Positions 2,498-18,274 of a stretch of 64,000 nucleotides of DNA are shown piece after piece. Every line of letters begins with the position of its first letter. Position 1 is the first letter of the stretch. The notes beneath the pieces are model-generated. The model was not told the origin of the DNA. It made no database searches and was given only the letters and a program-made list of their open reading frames with translations. The stretch is taken from positions 124,001 to 188,000 of the forward strand of contig NZ_JAWXYB010000018.1 in the NCBI RefSeq assembly GCF_033842475.1, read 5' to 3'. Both the position numbers and the translations under genes were made by a program. This DNA is from Acidiphilium acidophilum (GTDB taxonomy: Bacteria > Pseudomonadota > Alphaproteobacteria > Acetobacterales > Acetobacteraceae).

Positions 2498-4556
2498 TAA
2501 CCCATCTTTAGCACTAAAACGATCATAATTTGCAACCAAAGCGCATAACATATTGATATTGTATACTTTATGTTTTGCTTTTATTTGTAGTGCCATAATA
2601 TTATTGATGATCCCTTGACCCCCCACGGCACCAGCCTCATGTCTCGGCAATGTTTATCCGCAAAACAAAAACCCGGAATAAGTCCGATAACGAAACATAC
2701 TTCACCTATCGCCTCGTCGCCTCCGAGCGCATCGGTAAGCAGGTCCGCCAGATCACCCTGCTCAACCTTGGCCGCCAGTTCGACCTGCCACAGAGCGACT
2801 GGCAGGCCCTGTGCGCCAGGATAGACGCCTTGCTTGCCGGACAGGTCGGTATGCTCGCAGAACCCGAGATCATCGAGACCTTGGCTCAACGATATGCCGC
2901 CCGTCTTATTGCGGCCCAGCCAGGGGCAGCCCGATCGGATGCTGGACACCAAGCTCCACCGACCCCGTCGACCGCCGTTCAGGCATCCTTATTCCCATCA
3001 CCTGCCGCGCCATCTGCAGTTTACGCCGAGGTCGACATCGCCTCGCTGCAACTCATCCGGCCCCGGTCGGTCGGGGTCGAAGCGGTCGGCCTTGCAGCGA
3101 TGAACTGGTTGGGAATCGATCAGATTCTCCGCGATCTCGATTTCAATGGTGTCCAGCGAGCCGCGGTGGTCGGCAGCCTCATAGGTCGCATGGCAGCGCC
3201 GGGCAGCGAACTCGCAACCTGGCGCTGGCTGCGCGAGCGCAGTGCCCTCGGCGAACTGCTGGACGTGGACTTCGAAGCCATGCCGTTGATCCGTCTGTAT
3301 CGGACCTCCGACCTTCTTGTGCGACACCGTGACAAGATCGAGACCGCACTGTTCAGCCGGATCCAGGATTTGTTTGGACTGCCGGTTACCGTCACCCTCT
3401 ACGATCTGACCAACACGTATTTCGAAGGTACCGCCAGCGGTAACGCCAAGGCTGCTCGCGGTCGATCAAAGGAGAAGCGAACCGACTGCCCTCTGGTTAC
3501 CCTCGGCCTGGTCCTCGATGGCAGCGGCTTCGTGCGCCGCTCAAAGATGTTCGCCGGCAATGTCGGTGAAGCCACGACCCTTGAGGAGATGCTCGACGGC
3601 CTCACCGCTCCCAAGGGGGCGCTGGTCATCATGGATGCCGGCATCGCGACCGCAGCCAACGTCGCTTGGCTCATAAAACACGGATACCGTTACCTGGTGG
3701 TCAGCCGCGAACGCACCCGCCAGTTCGATCCGGATCAGGCGATCAGCACGCTGACCGCGTCGAACGAGACGGTCCAATTGCAACGTGTGCTGAGCGAGGA
3801 TGGCACGGAGGTTCGGCTCTATTGCCATTCCGAGGGGCGCAAGACCAAGGAGACCGCAATCACTGATCGGTTCATCACCCGGTTCGAGGCCGGTCTCACC
3901 ACGCTCGTCGACGGACTGGCAAAACCCCACGGACAGAAAAACCTGGCTGATATCCAGCGACGCATCGGCCGATTGATAGAGAAGAGCAGCGGCATCGGGC
4001 AACACTACGAGATCATCGTGACTCCCGATGAGACCGGAACCAAGGCCGCGTCGATCACCTGGGTCAAGGTTCCACTCGAGGGTTCAATGCTGACACATCC
4101 CGGGGTCTATTGTCTGCGCAGCAATGAAACCACCTGGGACGCCGCCACCTTGTGGCACACCTACACCATGTTGACCGATCTGGAGGCGGTGTTCCGCGGT
4201 CTCAAATCGGAACTCGGCCTCCGACCGGTGTTCCATCACAAAGCGGACCGCACCGAAGGGCATCTGTTCATCACCGTGCTGGCCTATCAACTGGTCCAGG
4301 CAATCCGGCATAAACTGAAAGCGGCAGGGGAGCCCCTGTCATGGACCCGATTGCGCGAAATCATCTCGGTGCAGCAACGGATCACCGCAACCTTCCAGCA
4401 GCGCGACGGTCGCACCCTGCATGTCCGCAAGGCCACAGTCGCCGAACCAGCCTTGCGCCGGATTTATGATGCGTTGGCACTCAATGCCTCGCCAAGAGGG
4501 ATCCAGAAACTCACCGTCTGATCCCCTTTGGATATGTTTGTAGTGCCACTCGGATT
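2498..4556 (+). mobile_element. IS1634-type insertion sequence, copy 1
   Basis: The limits are set by comparison with the second copy at 16216-18274: identity starts at TAACCCATC and stops after CCACTCGGATT, giving 2,059 bp in both. The ends are imperfect inverted repeats (left GCACTAAAAC, right end reverse complement GCACTACAAAC). I found three base differences between the copies, one of them changing an amino acid, so the duplication is recent. The left 150 bp are noncoding and AT-rich. The right end touches an IS256-type element directly. No target duplication is visible. Confidence 0.85.
2650..4521 (+). CDS. IS1634 family transposase, copy 1
   Basis: A 623-residue DDE transposase of the IS1634 branch of the IS4-like group. 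Visible family features are the N-terminal FTYRLVASERIGKQVRQITL, the core segment VTLYDLTNTYFEGTASGNAK with the first catalytic Asp, LVIMDAGIATAANVAWL with the second Asp, and the C-terminal segment DLEAVFRGLKSELGLRPVFH with the glutamate and the helical EGHLFITVLAYQLVQ. Full length and intact, so probably active. Differs from copy 2 at one residue near the C terminus (SPRGIQ here, SPGGIQ there). Confidence 0.93.
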   Translation: MFIRKTKTRNKSDNETYFTYRLVASERIGKQVRQITLLNLGRQFDLPQSDWQALCARIDALLAGQVGMLAEPEIIETLAQRYAARLIAAQPGAARSDAGHQAPPTPSTAVQASLFPSPAAPSAVYAEVDIASLQLIRPRSVGVEAVGLAAMNWLGIDQILRDLDFNGVQRAAVVGSLIGRMAAPGSELATWRWLRERSALGELLDVDFEAMPLIRLYRTSDLLVRHRDKIETALFSRIQDLFGLPVTVTLYDLTNTYFEGTASGNAKAARGRSKEKRTDCPLVTLGLVLDGSGFVRRSKMFAGNVGEATTLEEMLDGLTAPKGALVIMDAGIATAANVAWLIKHGYRYLVVSRERTRQFDPDQAISTLTASNETVQLQRVLSEDGTEVRLYCHSEGRKTKETAITDRFITRFEAGLTTLVDGLAKPHGQKNLADIQRRIGRLIEKSSGIGQHYEIIVTPDETGTKAASITWVKVPLEGSMLTHPGVYCLRSNETTWDAATLWHTYTMLTDLEAVFRGLKSELGLRPVFHHKADRTEGHLFITVLAYQLVQAIRHKLKAAGEPLSWTRLREIISVQQRITATFQQRDGRTLHVRKATVAEPALRRIYDALALNASPRGIQKLTV

Positions 4557-5909
4557 GATTGAGCAACCTGATGTCTGGAAAATAGGGCGAGCGGGGGTCA
4601 GGCATCCTGGTAGTCCCACTTGATGTAGCCCTTGGTGTCGGCGGCCCATTTTTCATCGATTTCGACGAGGACGGCGCTGACGAGGCGTTCGAGGGAGGCT
4701 TCGTTGGGGAAGACCCTGATTTTGGTGGTGCGGCGTTTGAGTTCCTGCTGGATGCCGCGTTCCATGGGGTTGGAAGTGCGAAGCCGGCGCTGGTGGGGTT
4801 CTGGCAGTGTGAAGACGGTGAGGCCTTCGGGGATATTTCGTTCGAGCCAATCGGCGAGCTTTGGTGCGGTGTCGCGATAGGCATTGACGAGGGTTGTGAG
4901 AGCGATCTGGGCAGCGGCGAGGGAATTTGCGTTCCAGACGGTCCGGAGTTCTGCGCCGATGCGTTTGCGGATGGCGTGGTTGGGGGCGTGGTGGATGGCG
5001 TTTTGGGCGAGGTGGAACTGGCATCGTTGCCAGTGTGCGGCGCCGAAGACGGCGCGGCGTGCGGCGTGCAATCCGGCATGGTCATCGGAGACGATGAATT
5101 CGACGCCTCGCAGGCCACGCTGATGGAGGCTTTCGAGGAAGGCACGCCAATGGACTTCGGCCTCGGAAAGGGCGACCGAGACGCCGAGGACACGGCGGCG
5201 TTCATCGGGTCCGATGCCGATGGCCGAGAGCACGGCGGCATCGCGGACGACGCCATTATCGCGCATTTTTTCATATCTGGCGTCGAGGATGAGGTAGCGG
5301 ATCTCGGCGAGGGGTCGGGTGCGCCAGGCGGCGAGTTCGTCATCGAGCAGCTTGCTGGCGCGGCTGACCTGAGCGGAGGAGAGGCTTTCGATGCCGAATT
5401 CGCGCATGACGGCCTCGACGTCGCGGGTGGAGACGCCTTTGATGTACATTTCGGCGACGGCGACCATGACGGCGCGGACCGAGCGTCGGCCGCGTTCGAG
5501 GGACTGTGGGTAGAAGGGTTCGCCCACGTGACCGGCGGTTTTGGGGACATCGACGGTGATCGACCCGGCCGGGGTATCGATCCGCTTGGGCTTGTAGCCA
5601 TTGGCGTAACCCTGACGATCGGGGTTGCGCTCGTAGTGACTGGCGTGGAGGAAGCGTTCGCGCTCGATCTGCATGGCGAGTTCGAAGGTCCTGGCAAATA
5701 CCGTGGCGATATCGCCTGCGCCGTTTTCGATCAGATGTTCCAAAAGTGCCTCGATAATCGTATCCTTTTTGGCGTCCATTCATCGGTCTCCATGTTGGTG
5801 TGAACAACTGCATGGAATACCAGAATGAACAGCCCTTGCCGGGGCATGCCCCGGCAAGGGCACCAACTCCCAACCCAAAATGAATTTCCAGACGTCAGGT
5901 TACACCACC
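4557..5909 (-). mobile_element. IS256-type insertion sequence, tandem copy 1
   Basis: A 1,353-bp element with 25-bp imperfect terminal inverted repeats (left GATTGAGCAACCTGATG, right end reverse complement GGTGGTGTAACCTGACG, both followed by TCTGGAAA; 20 of 25 match). The right limit is supported independently: in the second copy the sequence after ...TTACACCACC continues exactly into the passenger element whose intact version lies elsewhere. The left limit coincides with the IS1634 end. Followed after 6 bp by an identical second copy. Confidence 0.88.
4598..5779 (-). CDS. IS256 family transposase, tandem copy 1
   Basis: A 393-residue mutator-type DDE transposase. It shows the usual N-terminal DIATVFARTFELAMQIERE, the RNGY-like GYANGYKPKRIDTPAG, the first catalytic Asp in LILDARYEKMRDNG, the second in EFIVSDDHAGLHAA, the CQFHLAQNAI segment with the conserved C-x2-H, and the glutamate in RTSNPMERGIQQELKRRT. 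Length is normal for the family. Start chosen at the ATG giving MDAKKDTIIEALLEHL. A 336-residue open frame on the plus strand across the same bases is a shadow. Confidence 0.95.
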   Translation of the reverse strand: MDAKKDTIIEALLEHLIENGAGDIATVFARTFELAMQIERERFLHASHYERNPDRQGYANGYKPKRIDTPAGSITVDVPKTAGHVGEPFYPQSLERGRRSVRAVMVAVAEMYIKGVSTRDVEAVMREFGIESLSSAQVSRASKLLDDELAAWRTRPLAEIRYLILDARYEKMRDNGVVRDAAVLSAIGIGPDERRRVLGVSVALSEAEVHWRAFLESLHQRGLRGVEFIVSDDHAGLHAARRAVFGAAHWQRCQFHLAQNAIHHAPNHAIRKRIGAELRTVWNANSLAAAQIALTTLVNAYRDTAPKLADWLERNIPEGLTVFTLPEPHQRRLRTSNPMERGIQQELKRRTTKIRVFPNEASLERLVSAVLVEIDEKWAADTKGYIKWDYQDA

Positions 5910-5915
5910 GCGCAT

Positions 5916-7268
5916 GATTGAGCAACCTGATGTCTGGAAAATAGGGCGAGCGGGGGTCAGGCATCCTGGTAGTCCCACTTGATGTAGCCCTTGGTGTCGG
6001 CGGCCCATTTTTCATCGATTTCGACGAGGACGGCGCTGACGAGGCGTTCGAGGGAGGCTTCGTTGGGGAAGACCCTGATTTTGGTGGTGCGGCGTTTGAG
6101 TTCCTGCTGGATGCCGCGTTCCATGGGGTTGGAAGTGCGAAGCCGGCGCTGGTGGGGTTCTGGCAGTGTGAAGACGGTGAGGCCTTCGGGGATATTTCGT
6201 TCGAGCCAATCGGCGAGCTTTGGTGCGGTGTCGCGATAGGCATTGACGAGGGTTGTGAGAGCGATCTGGGCAGCGGCGAGGGAATTTGCGTTCCAGACGG
6301 TCCGGAGTTCTGCGCCGATGCGTTTGCGGATGGCGTGGTTGGGGGCGTGGTGGATGGCGTTTTGGGCGAGGTGGAACTGGCATCGTTGCCAGTGTGCGGC
6401 GCCGAAGACGGCGCGGCGTGCGGCGTGCAATCCGGCATGGTCATCGGAGACGATGAATTCGACGCCTCGCAGGCCACGCTGATGGAGGCTTTCGAGGAAG
6501 GCACGCCAATGGACTTCGGCCTCGGAAAGGGCGACCGAGACGCCGAGGACACGGCGGCGTTCATCGGGTCCGATGCCGATGGCCGAGAGCACGGCGGCAT
6601 CGCGGACGACGCCATTATCGCGCATTTTTTCATATCTGGCGTCGAGGATGAGGTAGCGGATCTCGGCGAGGGGTCGGGTGCGCCAGGCGGCGAGTTCGTC
6701 ATCGAGCAGCTTGCTGGCGCGGCTGACCTGAGCGGAGGAGAGGCTTTCGATGCCGAATTCGCGCATGACGGCCTCGACGTCGCGGGTGGAGACGCCTTTG
6801 ATGTACATTTCGGCGACGGCGACCATGACGGCGCGGACCGAGCGTCGGCCGCGTTCGAGGGACTGTGGGTAGAAGGGTTCGCCCACGTGACCGGCGGTTT
6901 TGGGGACATCGACGGTGATCGACCCGGCCGGGGTATCGATCCGCTTGGGCTTGTAGCCATTGGCGTAACCCTGACGATCGGGGTTGCGCTCGTAGTGACT
7001 GGCGTGGAGGAAGCGTTCGCGCTCGATCTGCATGGCGAGTTCGAAGGTCCTGGCAAATACCGTGGCGATATCGCCTGCGCCGTTTTCGATCAGATGTTCC
7101 AAAAGTGCCTCGATAATCGTATCCTTTTTGGCGTCCATTCATCGGTCTCCATGTTGGTGTGAACAACTGCATGGAATACCAGAATGAACAGCCCTTGCCG
7201 GGGCATGCCCCGGCAAGGGCACCAACTCCCAACCCAAAATGAATTTCCAGACGTCAGGTTACACCACC
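5916..7268 (-). mobile_element. IS256-type insertion sequence, tandem copy 2
   Basis: Offset from copy 1 by exactly 1,359 bp with no base differences noticed. The spacer between the two copies is 6 bp (GCGCAT, 5910-5915). The right end at 7268 cuts the passenger element that continues from 7269, so this insertion (or a deletion next to it) removed about 220 bp of that element. Confidence 0.88.
5957..7138 (-). CDS. IS256 family transposase, tandem copy 2
   Basis: Same 393-residue protein as the first tandem copy, residue for residue, with the complete D-D-E set (LILDARYEK, VSDDHAGL, NPMER). Because the two elements point the same way, the right terminal repeat of one faces the left repeat of the other. 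In the IS256 family such abutted ends occur in circular transposition intermediates. Confidence 0.95.
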   Translation of the reverse strand: MDAKKDTIIEALLEHLIENGAGDIATVFARTFELAMQIERERFLHASHYERNPDRQGYANGYKPKRIDTPAGSITVDVPKTAGHVGEPFYPQSLERGRRSVRAVMVAVAEMYIKGVSTRDVEAVMREFGIESLSSAQVSRASKLLDDELAAWRTRPLAEIRYLILDARYEKMRDNGVVRDAAVLSAIGIGPDERRRVLGVSVALSEAEVHWRAFLESLHQRGLRGVEFIVSDDHAGLHAARRAVFGAAHWQRCQFHLAQNAIHHAPNHAIRKRIGAELRTVWNANSLAAAQIALTTLVNAYRDTAPKLADWLERNIPEGLTVFTLPEPHQRRLRTSNPMERGIQQELKRRTTKIRVFPNEASLERLVSAVLVEIDEKWAADTKGYIKWDYQDA

Positions 7269-7323
7269 GAATTGCGTCAGCAGGTCATGCTCGGCCGCAG
7301 GCGTTGATGGAATAATCTGCAGA

Positions 7324-7761
7324 ATGTTCGTTTGCAGTCGCTGTCTGTGCCAAGTGCTTGTCTGCCCACAGTGCGACCGAGGTCAGATCTACTGCATGCG
7401 AACTTGCGCCCGGGAAGCTCGTCGTGAACGGCAAAGAGAAGCTCGCCGACGTTATCAGGCAACCCCGCGAGGACGTGTCATGCATGCGGCGAGAAATCGC
7501 CATTACCGCGCTCGGGCGGTCCGCGTGACGGATCATGGTCCTGCTAAGCAACCGGAAACCGCGCTTTCGCGTGGATTGGCAATCGCCGGGGCTTCGCGAA
7601 AGCCCTGGACCAGCAGTACTCCCCCAGGACATCACCTCTGTCATCGTTGCGGTCGCTCCGTTTCACCTTTCGTGCGCTTGACAGGTCTCCGGCCTCAACG
7701 TCGCCCGAGCCGGATTGCCAGGATTGATCAAAACGACACCGGCGCGCGACGCCCACCCTGA
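7324..7761 (+). CDS. Cys-rich passenger protein of the small mobile element, copy A
   Basis: A 145-residue basic protein with a dense N-terminal cysteine cluster (C4, C7, C9, C14, C17, C24, C28 in MFVCSRCLCQVLVCPQCDRG and following residues), then an Arg-rich helix-forming stretch (REARRERQREARRRYQATPRG) and a C-terminal CHRCGRSVSPFVRL with a further CxxC. This suggests a zinc-ribbon nucleic-acid-binding protein. From memory, proteins with the CDRGQ-YC motif sit in or beside transposable elements in many proteobacteria; I cannot confirm a function. Identical to the copy at 14741-15178. Its original upstream region is gone here, replaced by IS256. Confidence 0.6.
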   Translation: MFVCSRCLCQVLVCPQCDRGQIYCMRTCAREARRERQREARRRYQATPRGRVMHAARNRHYRARAVRVTDHGPAKQPETALSRGLAIAGASRKPWTSSTPPGHHLCHRCGRSVSPFVRLTGLRPQRRPSRIARIDQNDTGARRPP

Positions 7762-7863
7762 AAGCGCCAGCGCCACTGATACAACACCAATCCTGTAGTT
7801 CGATCAGCACGGCCATCCTGTCGTCCCGACCTGCGAATTCCGACGCTGTCGCGCGCAGCGGCG

Positions 7864-7917
7864 GTCAAGGATGGCCGAAGGCCACCGCGCTCTTGCGCGG
7901 CGCGAAGCGTCCTTGAC
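7864..7917 (+). other. Predicted three-way-junction structure, copy A
   Basis: Downstream of the passenger gene. Outer stem GTCAAGGA/TCCTTGAC encloses two hairpins, TGGCC-gaa-GGCCA and CCGCGC-tctt-GCGCGG on this strand. The same 54 bases occur in inverted orientation in copy B at 14585-14638. Role unknown: terminator, RNA or transposition site are all possible. Confidence 0.45.
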
Positions 7918-8098
7918 GGCTGCGAGCACGGCAGCAGCCTCAGAGCAGAGGGACAGCTACCCACTGCCACTGCCTCCTCCGCCAACTCTCCCACACCGTG
8001 TCAAACTGCCCCGCACTCATTAAGTCAATTCACTATGGTAACTATCCCGCGCCGTTTATGCGCGGATTCTCACCGCCGCCAACAGAAAACTTCAGTTT

Positions 8099-14044: not shown

Positions 14045-14584
14045 TCGGTCCACACCATGCAACGCTACGGGTATCCCCTCACCGATCCGACCGCACCCCC
14101 TCGCCCACGCTCCCACCAAGCCCAAACCCCGAAACACCCCACTATCAAACACCCACTATCGTTTTCATGAAAGCGAACCGCAGATGAGGCTGCCTAACAA
14201 TCTTAGTACCATGACCATCCACACACCCCGCCTTTGCCTCCGGCCCTGGCTCGATCGCGACCGGGAAGCCTTTGCCACGATGCACGCGGACCCAGACGTC
14301 ATGGTCGATGCCCCAAAGCCCCTCGGCCGAGAGGAGAGCGATTGGAAGTTCGATCGCTACAACGTCTGCTTCGAACAACACGGATTTTGCCGCTGGTGCG
14401 TCGAAACTTTGGACGGGTGTTGGCGGCGGTGAGAATCCGCGCATAAACGGCGCGGGATAGTTACCATAGTGAATTGACTTAATGAGTGCGGGGCAGTTTG
14501 ACACGGTGTGGGAGAGTTGGCGGAGGAGGCAGTGGCAGTGGGTAGCTGTCCCTCTGCTCTGAGGCTGCTGCCGTGCTCGCAGCC

Positions 14585-14638
14585 GTCAAGGACGCTTCGC
14601 GCCGCGCAAGAGCGCGGTGGCCTTCGGCCATCCTTGAC
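14585..14638 (-). other. Predicted three-way-junction structure, copy B
   Basis: Outer 8-bp stem 14585-14592 with 14631-14638, hairpin A 14602-14607 with 14612-14617, and hairpin B 14618-14622 with 14626-14630; B abuts both A and the closing strand. It lies about 100 bases downstream of the passenger gene, in its transcription direction. Confidence 0.45.
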
Positions 14639-14740
14639 CGCCGCTGCGCGCGACAGCGTCGGAATTCGCAGGTCGGGACGACAGGATGGCCGTGCTGATC
14701 GAACTACAGGATTGGTGTTGTATCAGTGGCGCTGGCGCTT

Positions 14741-15178
14741 TCAGGGTGGGCGTCGCGCGCCGGTGTCGTTTTGATCAATCCTGGCAATCCGGCTCGGGCG
14801 ACGTTGAGGCCGGAGACCTGTCAAGCGCACGAAAGGTGAAACGGAGCGACCGCAACGATGACAGAGGTGATGTCCTGGGGGAGTACTGCTGGTCCAGGGC
14901 TTTCGCGAAGCCCCGGCGATTGCCAATCCACGCGAAAGCGCGGTTTCCGGTTGCTTAGCAGGACCATGATCCGTCACGCGGACCGCCCGAGCGCGGTAAT
15001 GGCGATTTCTCGCCGCATGCATGACACGTCCTCGCGGGGTTGCCTGATAACGTCGGCGAGCTTCTCTTTGCCGTTCACGACGAGCTTCCCGGGCGCAAGT
15101 TCGCATGCAGTAGATCTGACCTCGGTCGCACTGTGGGCAGACAAGCACTTGGCACAGACAGCGACTGCAAACGAACAT
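14741..15178 (-). CDS. Cys-rich passenger protein of the small mobile element, copy B
   Basis: Identical 145-residue protein to the one at 7324-7761. The frame can be extended upstream to 15262, but the extra residues look noncoding and copy A lacks their upstream bases, so the ATG giving MFVCSRC is preferred. Here the native upstream region is kept, including the palindrome at 15393-15408. It is the only gene in the element, so it may help mobility or be a selfish accessory. Zinc-ribbon character is inferred from the clustered CxxC motifs. Confidence 0.6.
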   Translation of the reverse strand: MFVCSRCLCQVLVCPQCDRGQIYCMRTCAREARRERQREARRRYQATPRGRVMHAARNRHYRARAVRVTDHGPAKQPETALSRGLAIAGASRKPWTSSTPPGHHLCHRCGRSVSPFVRLTGLRPQRRPSRIARIDQNDTGARRPP

Positions 15179-15392
15179 TCTGCAGATTATTCCATCAACG
15201 CCTGCGGCCGAGCATGACCTGCTGACGCAATTCACACTGTCTTTGGTCATCTGGTCCAACAACTGCTCACTTCCCCAGCTGATTCAAATCCTCGAACGTT
15301 CTGCGTTTCCTGACGGACCTCGTACCCGGCCGATCTGGTTCTCGTGTGATTTAGGCGCCGGGTCCAGGTTGCCGTAAAGGCCGGTCAGTGCC

Positions 15393-15408
15393 GTCCATTT
15401 AAATGGAC
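15393..15408. promoter_or_regulatory. 16-bp palindrome upstream of the passenger gene
   Basis: GTCCATTTAAATGGAC is a perfect palindrome, flanked by TGCC on the left and its complement GGCA on the right with small gaps. It lies about 215 bp upstream of the passenger start and close to the element end, so it may be an operator or a transposase-binding site. Confidence 0.35.
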
Positions 15409-15782
15409 TCGGCAGCTACGCGCCGTTTATGCGCGGATTCTCACCGCCGCCAACAGACGGGCAATTCATCGGCTACACCGGCATCATGCGAGCGTCCGCT
15501 CGTCATCCGCTCGGTCCGCACGATGAGATCGGATGGCGCTTGATCCGCCCCGCCTGGGGCTTCGGCTACGCGACCGAAGCCGCACAGGCCTCGCTGGACG
15601 ACGCATTCCTGCGCGTCGGTTTGACGGAAGTGCTGGCCTACACTGCGCCGGACAACGTCCGATCCCAGGCGGTCATGACCCGGCTAGGCCTCCGACGCGA
15701 CCCAGCCCGAGACTTTGCCGCTGCATTCGATGGCACCAACAAGTGGCAGGGCTTGGTCTGGGTAAGCCGCCACACCGTGTAA

Positions 15783-16215: not shown

Positions 16216-18274
16216 TAACCCATCTTTAGCACTAAAACGATCATAATTTGCAACCAAAGCGCATAACATATTGATATTGTATACTTTATGTTTTGCTTTT
16301 ATTTGTAGTGCCATAATATTATTGATGATCCCTTGACCCCCCACGGCACCAGCCTCATGTCTCGGCAATGTTTATCCGCAAAACAAAAACCCGGAATAAG
16401 TCCGATAACGAAACATACTTCACCTATCGCCTCGTCGCCTCCGAGCGCATCGGTAAGCAGGTCCGCCAGATCACCCTGCTCAACCTTGGCCGCCAGTTCG
16501 ACCTGCCACAGAGCGACTGGCAGGCCCTGTGCGCCAGGATAGACGCCTTGCTTGCCGGACAGGTCGGTATGCTCGCAGAACCCGAGATCATCGAGACCTT
16601 GGCTCAACGATATGCCGCCCGTCTTATTGCGGCCCAGCCAGGGGCAGCCCGATCGGATGCTGGACACCAAGCTCCACCGACCCCGTCGACCGCCGTTCAG
16701 GCATCCTTATTCCCATCACCTGCCGCGCCATCTGCAGTTTACGCCGAGGTCGACATCGCCTCGCTGCAACTCATCCGGCCCCGGTCGGTCGGGGTCGAAG
16801 CGGTCGGCCTTGCAGCGATGAACTGGTTGGGAATCGATCAGATTCTCCGCGATCTCGATTTCAATGGTGTCCAGCGAGCCGCGGTGGTCGGCAGCCTCAT
16901 AGGTCGCATGGCAGCGCCGGGCAGCGAACTCGCAACCTGGCGCTGGCTGCGCGAGCGCAGTGCCCTCGGCGAACTGCTGGACGTGGACTTCGAAGCCATG
17001 CCGTTGATCCGTCTGTATCGGACCTCCGACCTTCTTGTGCGACACCGTGACAAGATCGAGACCGCACTGTTCAGCCGGATCCAGGATTTGTTTGGACTGC
17101 CGGTTACCGTCACCCTCTACGATCTGACCAACACGTATTTCGAAGGTACCGCCAGCGGTAACGCCAAGGCTGCTCGCGGTCGATCAAAGGAGAAGCGAAC
17201 CGACTGCCCTCTGGTTACCCTCGGCCTGGTCCTCGATGGCAGCGGCTTCGTGCGCCGCTCAAAGATGTTCGCCGGCAATGTCGGTGAAGCCACGACCCTT
17301 GAGGAGATGCTCGACGGCCTCACCGCTCCCAAGGGGGCGCTGGTCATCATGGATGCCGGCATCGCGACCGCAGCCAACGTCGCCTGGCTCATAAAACACG
17401 GATACCGTTACTTGGTGGTCAGCCGCGAACGCACCCGCCAGTTCGATCCGGATCAGGCGATCAGCACGCTGACCGCGTCGAACGAGACGGTCCAATTGCA
17501 ACGTGTGCTGAGCGAGGATGGCACGGAGGTTCGGCTCTATTGCCATTCCGAGGGGCGCAAGACCAAGGAGACCGCAATCACTGATCGGTTCATCACCCGG
17601 TTCGAGGCCGGTCTCACCACGCTCGTCGACGGACTGGCAAAACCCCACGGACAGAAAAACCTGGCTGATATCCAGCGACGCATCGGCCGATTGATAGAGA
17701 AGAGCAGCGGCATCGGGCAACACTACGAGATCATCGTGACTCCCGATGAGACCGGAACCAAGGCCGCGTCGATCACCTGGGTCAAGGTTCCACTCGAGGG
17801 TTCAATGCTGACACATCCCGGGGTCTATTGTCTGCGCAGCAATGAAACCACCTGGGACGCCGCCACCTTGTGGCACACCTACACCATGTTGACCGATCTG
17901 GAGGCGGTGTTCCGCGGTCTCAAATCGGAACTCGGCCTCCGACCGGTGTTCCATCACAAAGCGGACCGCACCGAAGGGCATCTGTTCATCACCGTGCTGG
18001 CCTATCAACTGGTCCAGGCAATCCGGCATAAACTGAAAGCGGCAGGGGAGCCCCTGTCATGGACCCGATTGCGCGAAATCATCTCGGTGCAGCAACGGAT
18101 CACCGCAACCTTCCAGCAGCGCGACGGTCGCACCCTGCATGTCCGCAAGGCCACAGTCGCCGAACCAGCCTTGCGCCGGATTTATGATGCGTTGGCACTC
18201 AATGCCTCGCCAGGAGGGATCCAGAAACTCACCGTCTGATCCCCTTTGGATATGTTTGTAGTGCCACTCGGATT
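16216..18274 (+). mobile_element. IS1634-type insertion sequence, copy 2
   Basis: Same 2,059 bp as 2498-4556 and in the same direction, with three base differences noticed. Left flank CATAACTCC and right flank TTTTTAAGAG show no clear target duplication with each other or with copy 1. The two copies bracket 11.7 kb. Confidence 0.87.
16368..18239 (+). CDS. IS1634 family transposase, copy 2
   Basis: Intact 623-residue transposase with the same D-D-E regions as copy 1 (YDLTNTYFEG, IMDAGIATAAN, DLEAVFRGLKSELGL). It differs only in G for R in the C-terminal SPGGIQKLTV. Both copies are potentially active, so either alone or the whole block could move. Confidence 0.93.
   Translation: MFIRKTKTRNKSDNETYFTYRLVASERIGKQVRQITLLNLGRQFDLPQSDWQALCARIDALLAGQVGMLAEPEIIETLAQRYAARLIAAQPGAARSDAGHQAPPTPSTAVQASLFPSPAAPSAVYAEVDIASLQLIRPRSVGVEAVGLAAMNWLGIDQILRDLDFNGVQRAAVVGSLIGRMAAPGSELATWRWLRERSALGELLDVDFEAMPLIRLYRTSDLLVRHRDKIETALFSRIQDLFGLPVTVTLYDLTNTYFEGTASGNAKAARGRSKEKRTDCPLVTLGLVLDGSGFVRRSKMFAGNVGEATTLEEMLDGLTAPKGALVIMDAGIATAANVAWLIKHGYRYLVVSRERTRQFDPDQAISTLTASNETVQLQRVLSEDGTEVRLYCHSEGRKTKETAITDRFITRFEAGLTTLVDGLAKPHGQKNLADIQRRIGRLIEKSSGIGQHYEIIVTPDETGTKAASITWVKVPLEGSMLTHPGVYCLRSNETTWDAATLWHTYTMLTDLEAVFRGLKSELGLRPVFHHKADRTEGHLFITVLAYQLVQAIRHKLKAAGEPLSWTRLREIISVQQRITATFQQRDGRTLHVRKATVAEPALRRIYDALALNASPGGIQKLTV

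Follow-up and report, generated by a model that had tools for sequence, protein, structure and literature searches.

The window, a 64,000-nucleotide stretch of the Acidiphilium acidophilum genome, contains at positions 14418-15455 a complete 1,038-bp element with IS21-type ends, its gene lying on the minus strand. The terminal inverted repeats at 14418-14454 (plus strand, downstream of the gene) and 15419-15455 (minus strand, upstream of the gene) pair at 37 of 37 bases and are flanked by the target duplication GACGGG at 14412-14417 and 15456-15461, confirming the perfect repeats and 6-bp duplication described in an earlier sequence-only reading; none of 100 shuffles of the flanks in the window gave similar ends. 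The insertion interrupts a putative GNAT-like gene (5' part 14184-14417, 3' part 15456-15782, both plus strand). An uninterrupted paralogue in the same genome (L293) has a single GACGGG at the insertion point, matches the joined flanks without gaps at 207 of 237 positions and is, judged by its sequence, the equivalent of the empty site.

The genome contains eight copies of the full 1,038-bp element, all 100% identical, with target duplications of 5, 5, 5, 6, 8, 6, 5 and 6 bp. The nearby 816-bp copy (7269-8084, plus strand, reverse orientation) is the reverse complement of the first 816 bases of the element at 100% identity; the opposite end and the first part of the Cys-rich gene are missing from it. 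A further partial copy (628 bp, 91% identity) contains one stop inside its Cys frame. No 1,038-bp copy was found in a draft genome of the same species, which is 83% complete and contains one perfect 39-bp-end match; because of this the copy burst may be recent, with the caveat that the comparison is to a draft, and together with the eight identical copies this supports the recent activity that the sequence-only reading had proposed.

Several overlapping ORFs lie inside the element. The 173-aa minus-strand ORF at 14741-15262, encoding a Cys-rich protein (the Cys protein), has homologues elsewhere, and the plus-strand ORFs at 14686-14958 and 14858-15217 have no match in Pfam or NCBIfam, the two libraries used. 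Terminal repeats of the IS21 family start with TGT and end with ACA, and its target duplications span 4-8 bp. The 1,038-bp element has TGT...ACA ends and duplications of 5-8 bp across the eight copies, and contains neither istA nor istB, in agreement with the earlier statement that it carries no transposase. IS21 ends are described as containing multiple repeats, L1/L2 and R1/R2 (PMC10122671); no internal repeats above shuffle level were found in the ends of the 1,038-bp element or of its 3,603-bp partner described below.

Other transposase genes also occur in the window. Two identical 393-aa Mutator-type transposase ORFs lie side by side on the minus strand (4598-5779 and 5957-7138). A 623-aa transposase ORF, presumably IS1634-like, is present in two copies differing at one residue (2650-4521 and 16368-18239). 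An active IS1634 element is described in Acidiphilium sp. PM (PMC4549789).

IS21 partners and the Cys-rich operon gene

A genome search with the 37-bp end, suggested in the sequence-only reading as the way to name the family, identified five larger elements bounded by identical 37-bp ends, one of them cut by a contig end. Two are 3,603 bp long (C18:963216-966818 and C1:88267-91869), a third of 3,601 bp has lost its second end to the contig boundary, and the remaining two (L022 and L025; 4,965 and 4,964 bp) each contain an insertion of about 1.36 kb, which in L022 includes a Transposase_mut gene encoding the same 393-aa protein as the two ORFs in the window. The target duplication is 5 bp in all four larger elements measured. 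The coding content of the 3,603-bp element, all on one strand, is a Cys-rich protein of 173 aa, IstA (499 aa; Mu-transpos_C_2, 1.3e-23), IstB (IstB_IS21, 5.4e-56) and an ORF of 79 aa. Since identical 37-bp ends bound an element encoding IstA and IstB, the family of the 1,038-bp element is, on the evidence of these ends, IS21; since it lacks both genes, it is classed as a non-autonomous element with IS21 ends, not as IS21 itself. The co-resident elements with identical ends also lend support to the proposal that it may be mobilized in trans.

Similar arrangements are annotated on plasmids of Paraburkholderia, Cupriavidus and Rhizobium, with a 61-71-aa ORF after istB and with the Cys gene unannotated in the reading frame used here. 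Acidiphilium sp. STC_15 (L149) contains a partner element with 99% identity in the Cys protein and 100% in IstA, and the best end matches in three other genomes (G003, G025 and G038; four candidates scored per genome) were about 89% identical, or 91% for one 33-bp match.

The relationship between the 1,038-bp and 3,603-bp elements is uneven along their length. At the gene-downstream side the identity of the repeat extends to 40 bp of one end of the 3,603-bp element, and at the gene-upstream side it covers 37 bp. Element positions 128-303 are 84% identical in DNA, and the only other similarity consists of two matches, 12 and 17 bases long, at chance level. The two Cys proteins are 41% identical (BLASTP), and the Cys gene in the window is a diverged homologue of the first gene in the partner's IS21 operon.

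This gene recurs in front of istA. Of 121 relatives, 80 were retained in the scan. Among 89 Cys loci (L082-L170, not all independent), 71 are followed by istA on the same strand, 69 of them at a distance of at most 250 bp. In an estimated 57 of the 69 loci the Cys stop overlaps the istA start, mostly by 4 or 17 bases, with the istA starts inferred by alignment to one IstA. Conversely, among IstA matches with E <= 1e-100 in 150 genomes of the family, the Cys gene is upstream in all nine for which the start is present (four genomes). The Cys gene is so consistently upstream of istA that it can be regarded, from gene order, as a regular gene of this IS21 subgroup. Cys relatives were found in 9 of 299 family genomes and 6 of 385 class genomes (A. 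acidophilum itself counted in both), in nine records of a plasmid protein search, and in two viral contigs, both with istA close downstream.

Database searches gave little indication of the function of the Cys protein. No clear Pfam or NCBIfam match was found for 70 homologues at E <= 0.01 (none in NCBIfam, and two Pfam families with one member each at E 0.009), the best PHROGs match was phrog_26310 (E 0.006, function unknown), a PDB sequence search gave one match at E 0.089, neither of these being usable, and two fold libraries gave no match at E <= 0.001. The AlphaFold2 model (mean pLDDT 71, with block means of 85-97 for residues 31-90) consists of a short hairpin bearing CxxC pairs and two long helices, with a later CxxC, suggesting a zinc ribbon through which the protein would bind zinc.

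A covarying segment near one end of the element

The element also contains, at 14554-14709 (plus strand), a conserved segment of about 150 nt with covarying structure, lying within element positions 128-303, which recur widely. In an alignment of 27 copies, from which the structure itself was derived, support was found for 23 base pairs, with 95.3% of cells paired and both sides changing in 14 pairs; both-side changes occur in 51 cells compared to 12.7 in shuffles, none of 500 shuffles scored as high on any measure, and slid versions scored far lower. The alignment includes the window and excludes five partial, overlapping or duplicate stretches (L067, L073, L076, L078 and L129) from a set of 31. 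The plus strand of the window is favoured by two pairs in which G-U predominates (24 of 26 and 23 of 27 cells). Rfam gave two matches for the window stretch, at E 1.1 and 9.8 and far below gathering, and none for six other loci; a phage search with the segment likewise gave no match.

A model of the segment matches 14 of 60 genomes, that of A. acidophilum included, and 9 of 93 stretches, almost all of which surround Cys loci. Four of these nine stretches (L089, L091, L133 and L153) were already in the alignment, L129 and L149 duplicate or nearly duplicate rows of it, and the additions are L110, L090 and L128. The clade of istA-less loci described below accounts for three of the nine, namely L089, L090 and L128. 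The segment is dispersed in Acetobacteraceae, Azospirillum, Sinorhizobium and others, with some copies inside IS21 elements. Its consideration as a feature specific to IS21 was rejected: IstA or IstB was found in 2 of 33 segment-bearing stretches (L054 and L055; stretches of 1.7-10 kb), and no IS21 role is therefore claimed for it. Two weaker copies lie in a repeated region (G000:C1:56719-56857 and G000:C18:3622546-3622684), with no IstA, IstB or Cys protein found within 4.2 kb around either.

A clade of Cys loci without istA

Eighteen of the 89 Cys loci lack an adjacent istA, and several of these are bounded by IS21-like ends. They include elements of 930 bp on a Rhizobium pTi plasmid (L083, duplication TTTGGG), 910 bp in a Hyphomicrobiales MAG (L090, GATAC), 831 bp in an uncultured Rhodopila (L144, CCGAA) and, at a looser threshold, 931 bp in Agrobacterium vitis (L106, 5-bp duplication). 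Rhodopila globiformis (L094) contains a 779-bp element with a 40/40 repeat and no duplication at those ends, while a second Rhodopila copy (L211) is 828 bp long with the duplication GCCAAAG. In Variovorax (L160/L215), a 1,832-bp element with IS21-like ends, a Cys gene and the duplication CTGGC lies at L215:2322-4153; its interior reads like an IS630-type transposase. Among the rest are one with a broken gene (L105), four in which the contig ends within 200 bp (L119, L147, L159 and L162), three from Rhizobium with other insertions nearby, which fall outside the clade described next (L085, L087 and L161), and two at which no element ends were found (L124 and L167). Three later loci (L227, L233 and L247) are also without istA in the available stretch, L227 again outside the clade.

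In a Cys protein tree with 96 rows (83 of them different, identical and near-identical copies included; 146 columns), eight istA-less rows form one clade (the window, L089, L128, L144, L094, L083, L106 and L090; support 98/87, and 97% of 200 bootstrap trees). These rows come from Acidiphilium, Rhodopila, Rhizobium/Agrobacterium, Bradyrhizobium and others, and are well diverged from each other. Repeats with a 5-6-bp duplication are present at five of the eight loci (the window, L083, L090, L144 and, at the looser threshold, L106), compared to none of 64 istA-linked control loci and none of 1,000 shuffles at either threshold; a repeat alone occurred in one control locus, and in 2 and 16 shuffles. 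Among the other clade loci, L128 has a weak repeat without duplication, and in L089 the contig stops 257 bp past the match with no istA.

The clade persists upon removal of 12 rows, including the istA-linked sister rows L151/L152 (SH-aLRT 99), and also when the tree is restricted to 96 core columns that exclude VTD/VTH (SH-aLRT 97). The sister rows, from Granulosicoccus, have a VTD motif in common with the clade, and L136 shares it too. When 15 rows were added in a quick tree, the very long-branched, istA-linked L245 fell inside the clade; a careful 107-row tree without L244-L247 recovered one clade of nine rows, the second Rhodopila copy among them, with support 99/89 and in 99% of bootstrap trees. 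A filter kept L226, L180 and L182 out of the enlarged tree, from which L233 is also absent; the row of L247 is very long. Of 13 new loci from the family and class genomes, 11 were placed on the tree, and none joined the clade except the unsure L245. The clade does not take in all istA-less loci, seven other rows being placed elsewhere. Because Variovorax L160/L215 lies outside the clade, istA appears from the tree to have been lost there separately, and hence more than once.

Within the lineage, dN/dS (pairwise NG86, no test applied, pairs not independent) could be computed for eight pairs, one other being saturated. Six of the eight fall in the range 0.13-0.37, and the two closest pairs reach 0.59 and 0.74; the lowest value, 0.13, has a dS of 2.2 and is near saturation. 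Seven computable IS21-linked pairs gave 0.18-0.50.

The host genomes of the six other istA-less clade loci and of Variovorax, seven in all and likely including drafts, were searched for IstA. None was found at E <= 0.001 in three of the seven (Rhodopila globiformis, the Hyphomicrobiales MAG and a Baikal MAG), the A. vitis genome contains only two distant IstA proteins (26%), and a search of two uncultured Rhodopila stretches for matching autonomous ends yielded nothing above chance level. Incomplete assemblies could account for the hosts without IstA, as could loss of the partner by the elements.

A probable IS21 satellite and its alternatives

The ends, duplications, copies, resident partner, gene homology, clade and dN/dS below 1 are the observations on which we base our reading of the 1,038-bp element as an IS21 satellite, which we consider likely: it would belong to an old lineage with IS21-type ends, moved in trans by resident IstA and IstB, that has kept a diverged operon gene. 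We infer that the IstA transposase and the AAA+ helper IstB of the resident 3,603-bp IS21 act on the element in trans, and that transposition of the carrying element is helped or steered by the Cys protein, which is predicted to have a zinc ribbon and helices and perhaps binds DNA. The satellites would have lost istA-istB long ago, retained the Cys gene and spread as their own lineage. The element is probably a member of an old passenger-only lineage built around the third IS21 gene. A more specific version, which we put forward tentatively and at somewhat less than even odds, is that of a long-lived lineage of stand-alone elements in which a specialized copy of a third, previously undescribed IS21 protein draws resident IstA/IstB to the elements' own ends, with some members carrying the covarying segment near an end.

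The most serious alternative, though an unlikely one, is that the istA-less clade is a sampling effect and that the short elements arose as independent deletions, each from its own autonomous parent. The clade has just 8-9 rows, 80 of the 121 relatives were retained in the scan, contigs can break at repeats, and both the istA-linked, VTD-bearing sister rows (with L136 again sharing the motif) and the repeated loss indicated by Variovorax are in keeping with it; autonomous parents may also lie outside the sample, because no such IstA was found in three of the seven host genomes and the clade is small. However, adjacent istA is missing from all eight well-diverged clade rows, and the 11 tree-placed loci from the search of 299 family and 385 class genomes added no member other than the doubtful L245. 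Somewhat less probable again is an ordinary mobile insertion cassette, with the Cys gene as cargo benefiting the host and the IS21 ends as a mere vehicle. The structure fits the published description of such cassettes (PMC3913671) and dN/dS is below 1, but the cargo is homologous to an operon gene that by our estimate overlaps istA in most istA-linked loci, which favours a function in transposition over a benefit to the host.

It is highly improbable that the element arose recently from the resident 3,603-bp IS21 by internal deletion. Identical ends and the 84% identity over positions 128-303 are what such an event would leave, but the remaining DNA has only the chance-level matches noted above, the Cys proteins are 41% identical, and joining the window protein to the partner's branch (20 rows, many from Acetobacteraceae or Acidiphilium, a group named after the tree was seen) is rejected with an AU p of 6e-5. 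Derivation by internal deletion from a named IS, the finding that the sequence-only reading had specified as counting against a new type, is refuted for this resident. It is equally hard to credit that the small Cys protein is itself an unknown recombinase moving the element: its gene is the only one in the element shown to be conserved, and fold searches returned no known fold, but its homologues lie mostly beside istA, its predicted fold is a short CxxC hairpin with helices, and the ends and duplications fit IS21.

The satellite reading can be placed among known systems. IS21 and IS5376 resemble the elements studied here in their TGT...ACA ends and 5-8 bp duplications, and the partner has IstA and IstB, both with domains of the IS21 type; by contrast, the 1,038-bp element has neither gene, and the partner has one more gene ahead of istA and a short ORF following istB. 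MITEs, which carry no functional gene, are likewise short and non-autonomous with IS-like ends, whereas the 1,038-bp element is about 1 kb long with an intact, conserved ORF and dN/dS below 1. Satellites of phages and conjugative elements are lineages with few genes of their own that borrow mobility machinery from a helper; the likeness, of an own gene kept and helper machinery borrowed, is by analogy only, the helper here being a two-protein transposase. Two essential proteins are described for IS21 transposition (PMC11208146), and ISs are reported to hold extra ORFs of unknown role, a multi-ORF structure being typical of IS21 and IS66 (PMC3281130). Mobile insertion cassettes (MIC231 and mic-qnrD) have inverted repeats and a target duplication around a gene, with no transposase, as does the 1,038-bp element, and MIC231A1 is described as mobilized in trans by IS231A (PMC3913671). 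The suggestion of an undescribed passenger-only type therefore falls as regards the general kind, represented by these cassettes, and stands as regards the passenger: in contrast to the cassettes, the gene here has its homologue in an operon of the helper family, and the majority of the elements identified group in their own clade, a combination that looks new. No description of a third Cys-rich IS21 gene or of passenger-only IS21 elements was recognized among the papers listed in the literature searches, and a named relative may be present in ISfinder or TnPedia.

Non-autonomous bacterial elements are usually regarded as short-lived deletions. A deep clade keeping its own gene would, if true, represent a persistent parasite of a transposon, and the conservation of a small zinc-finger-like gene across stripped-down elements suggests such a long-lived parasite. 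Structures of IstA and the IstA-IstB complex have been solved for another IS21 member (PMC10122671, PMC11208146), and, if the satellite reading is true, the role of the extra protein in this IS21 subgroup would become testable.
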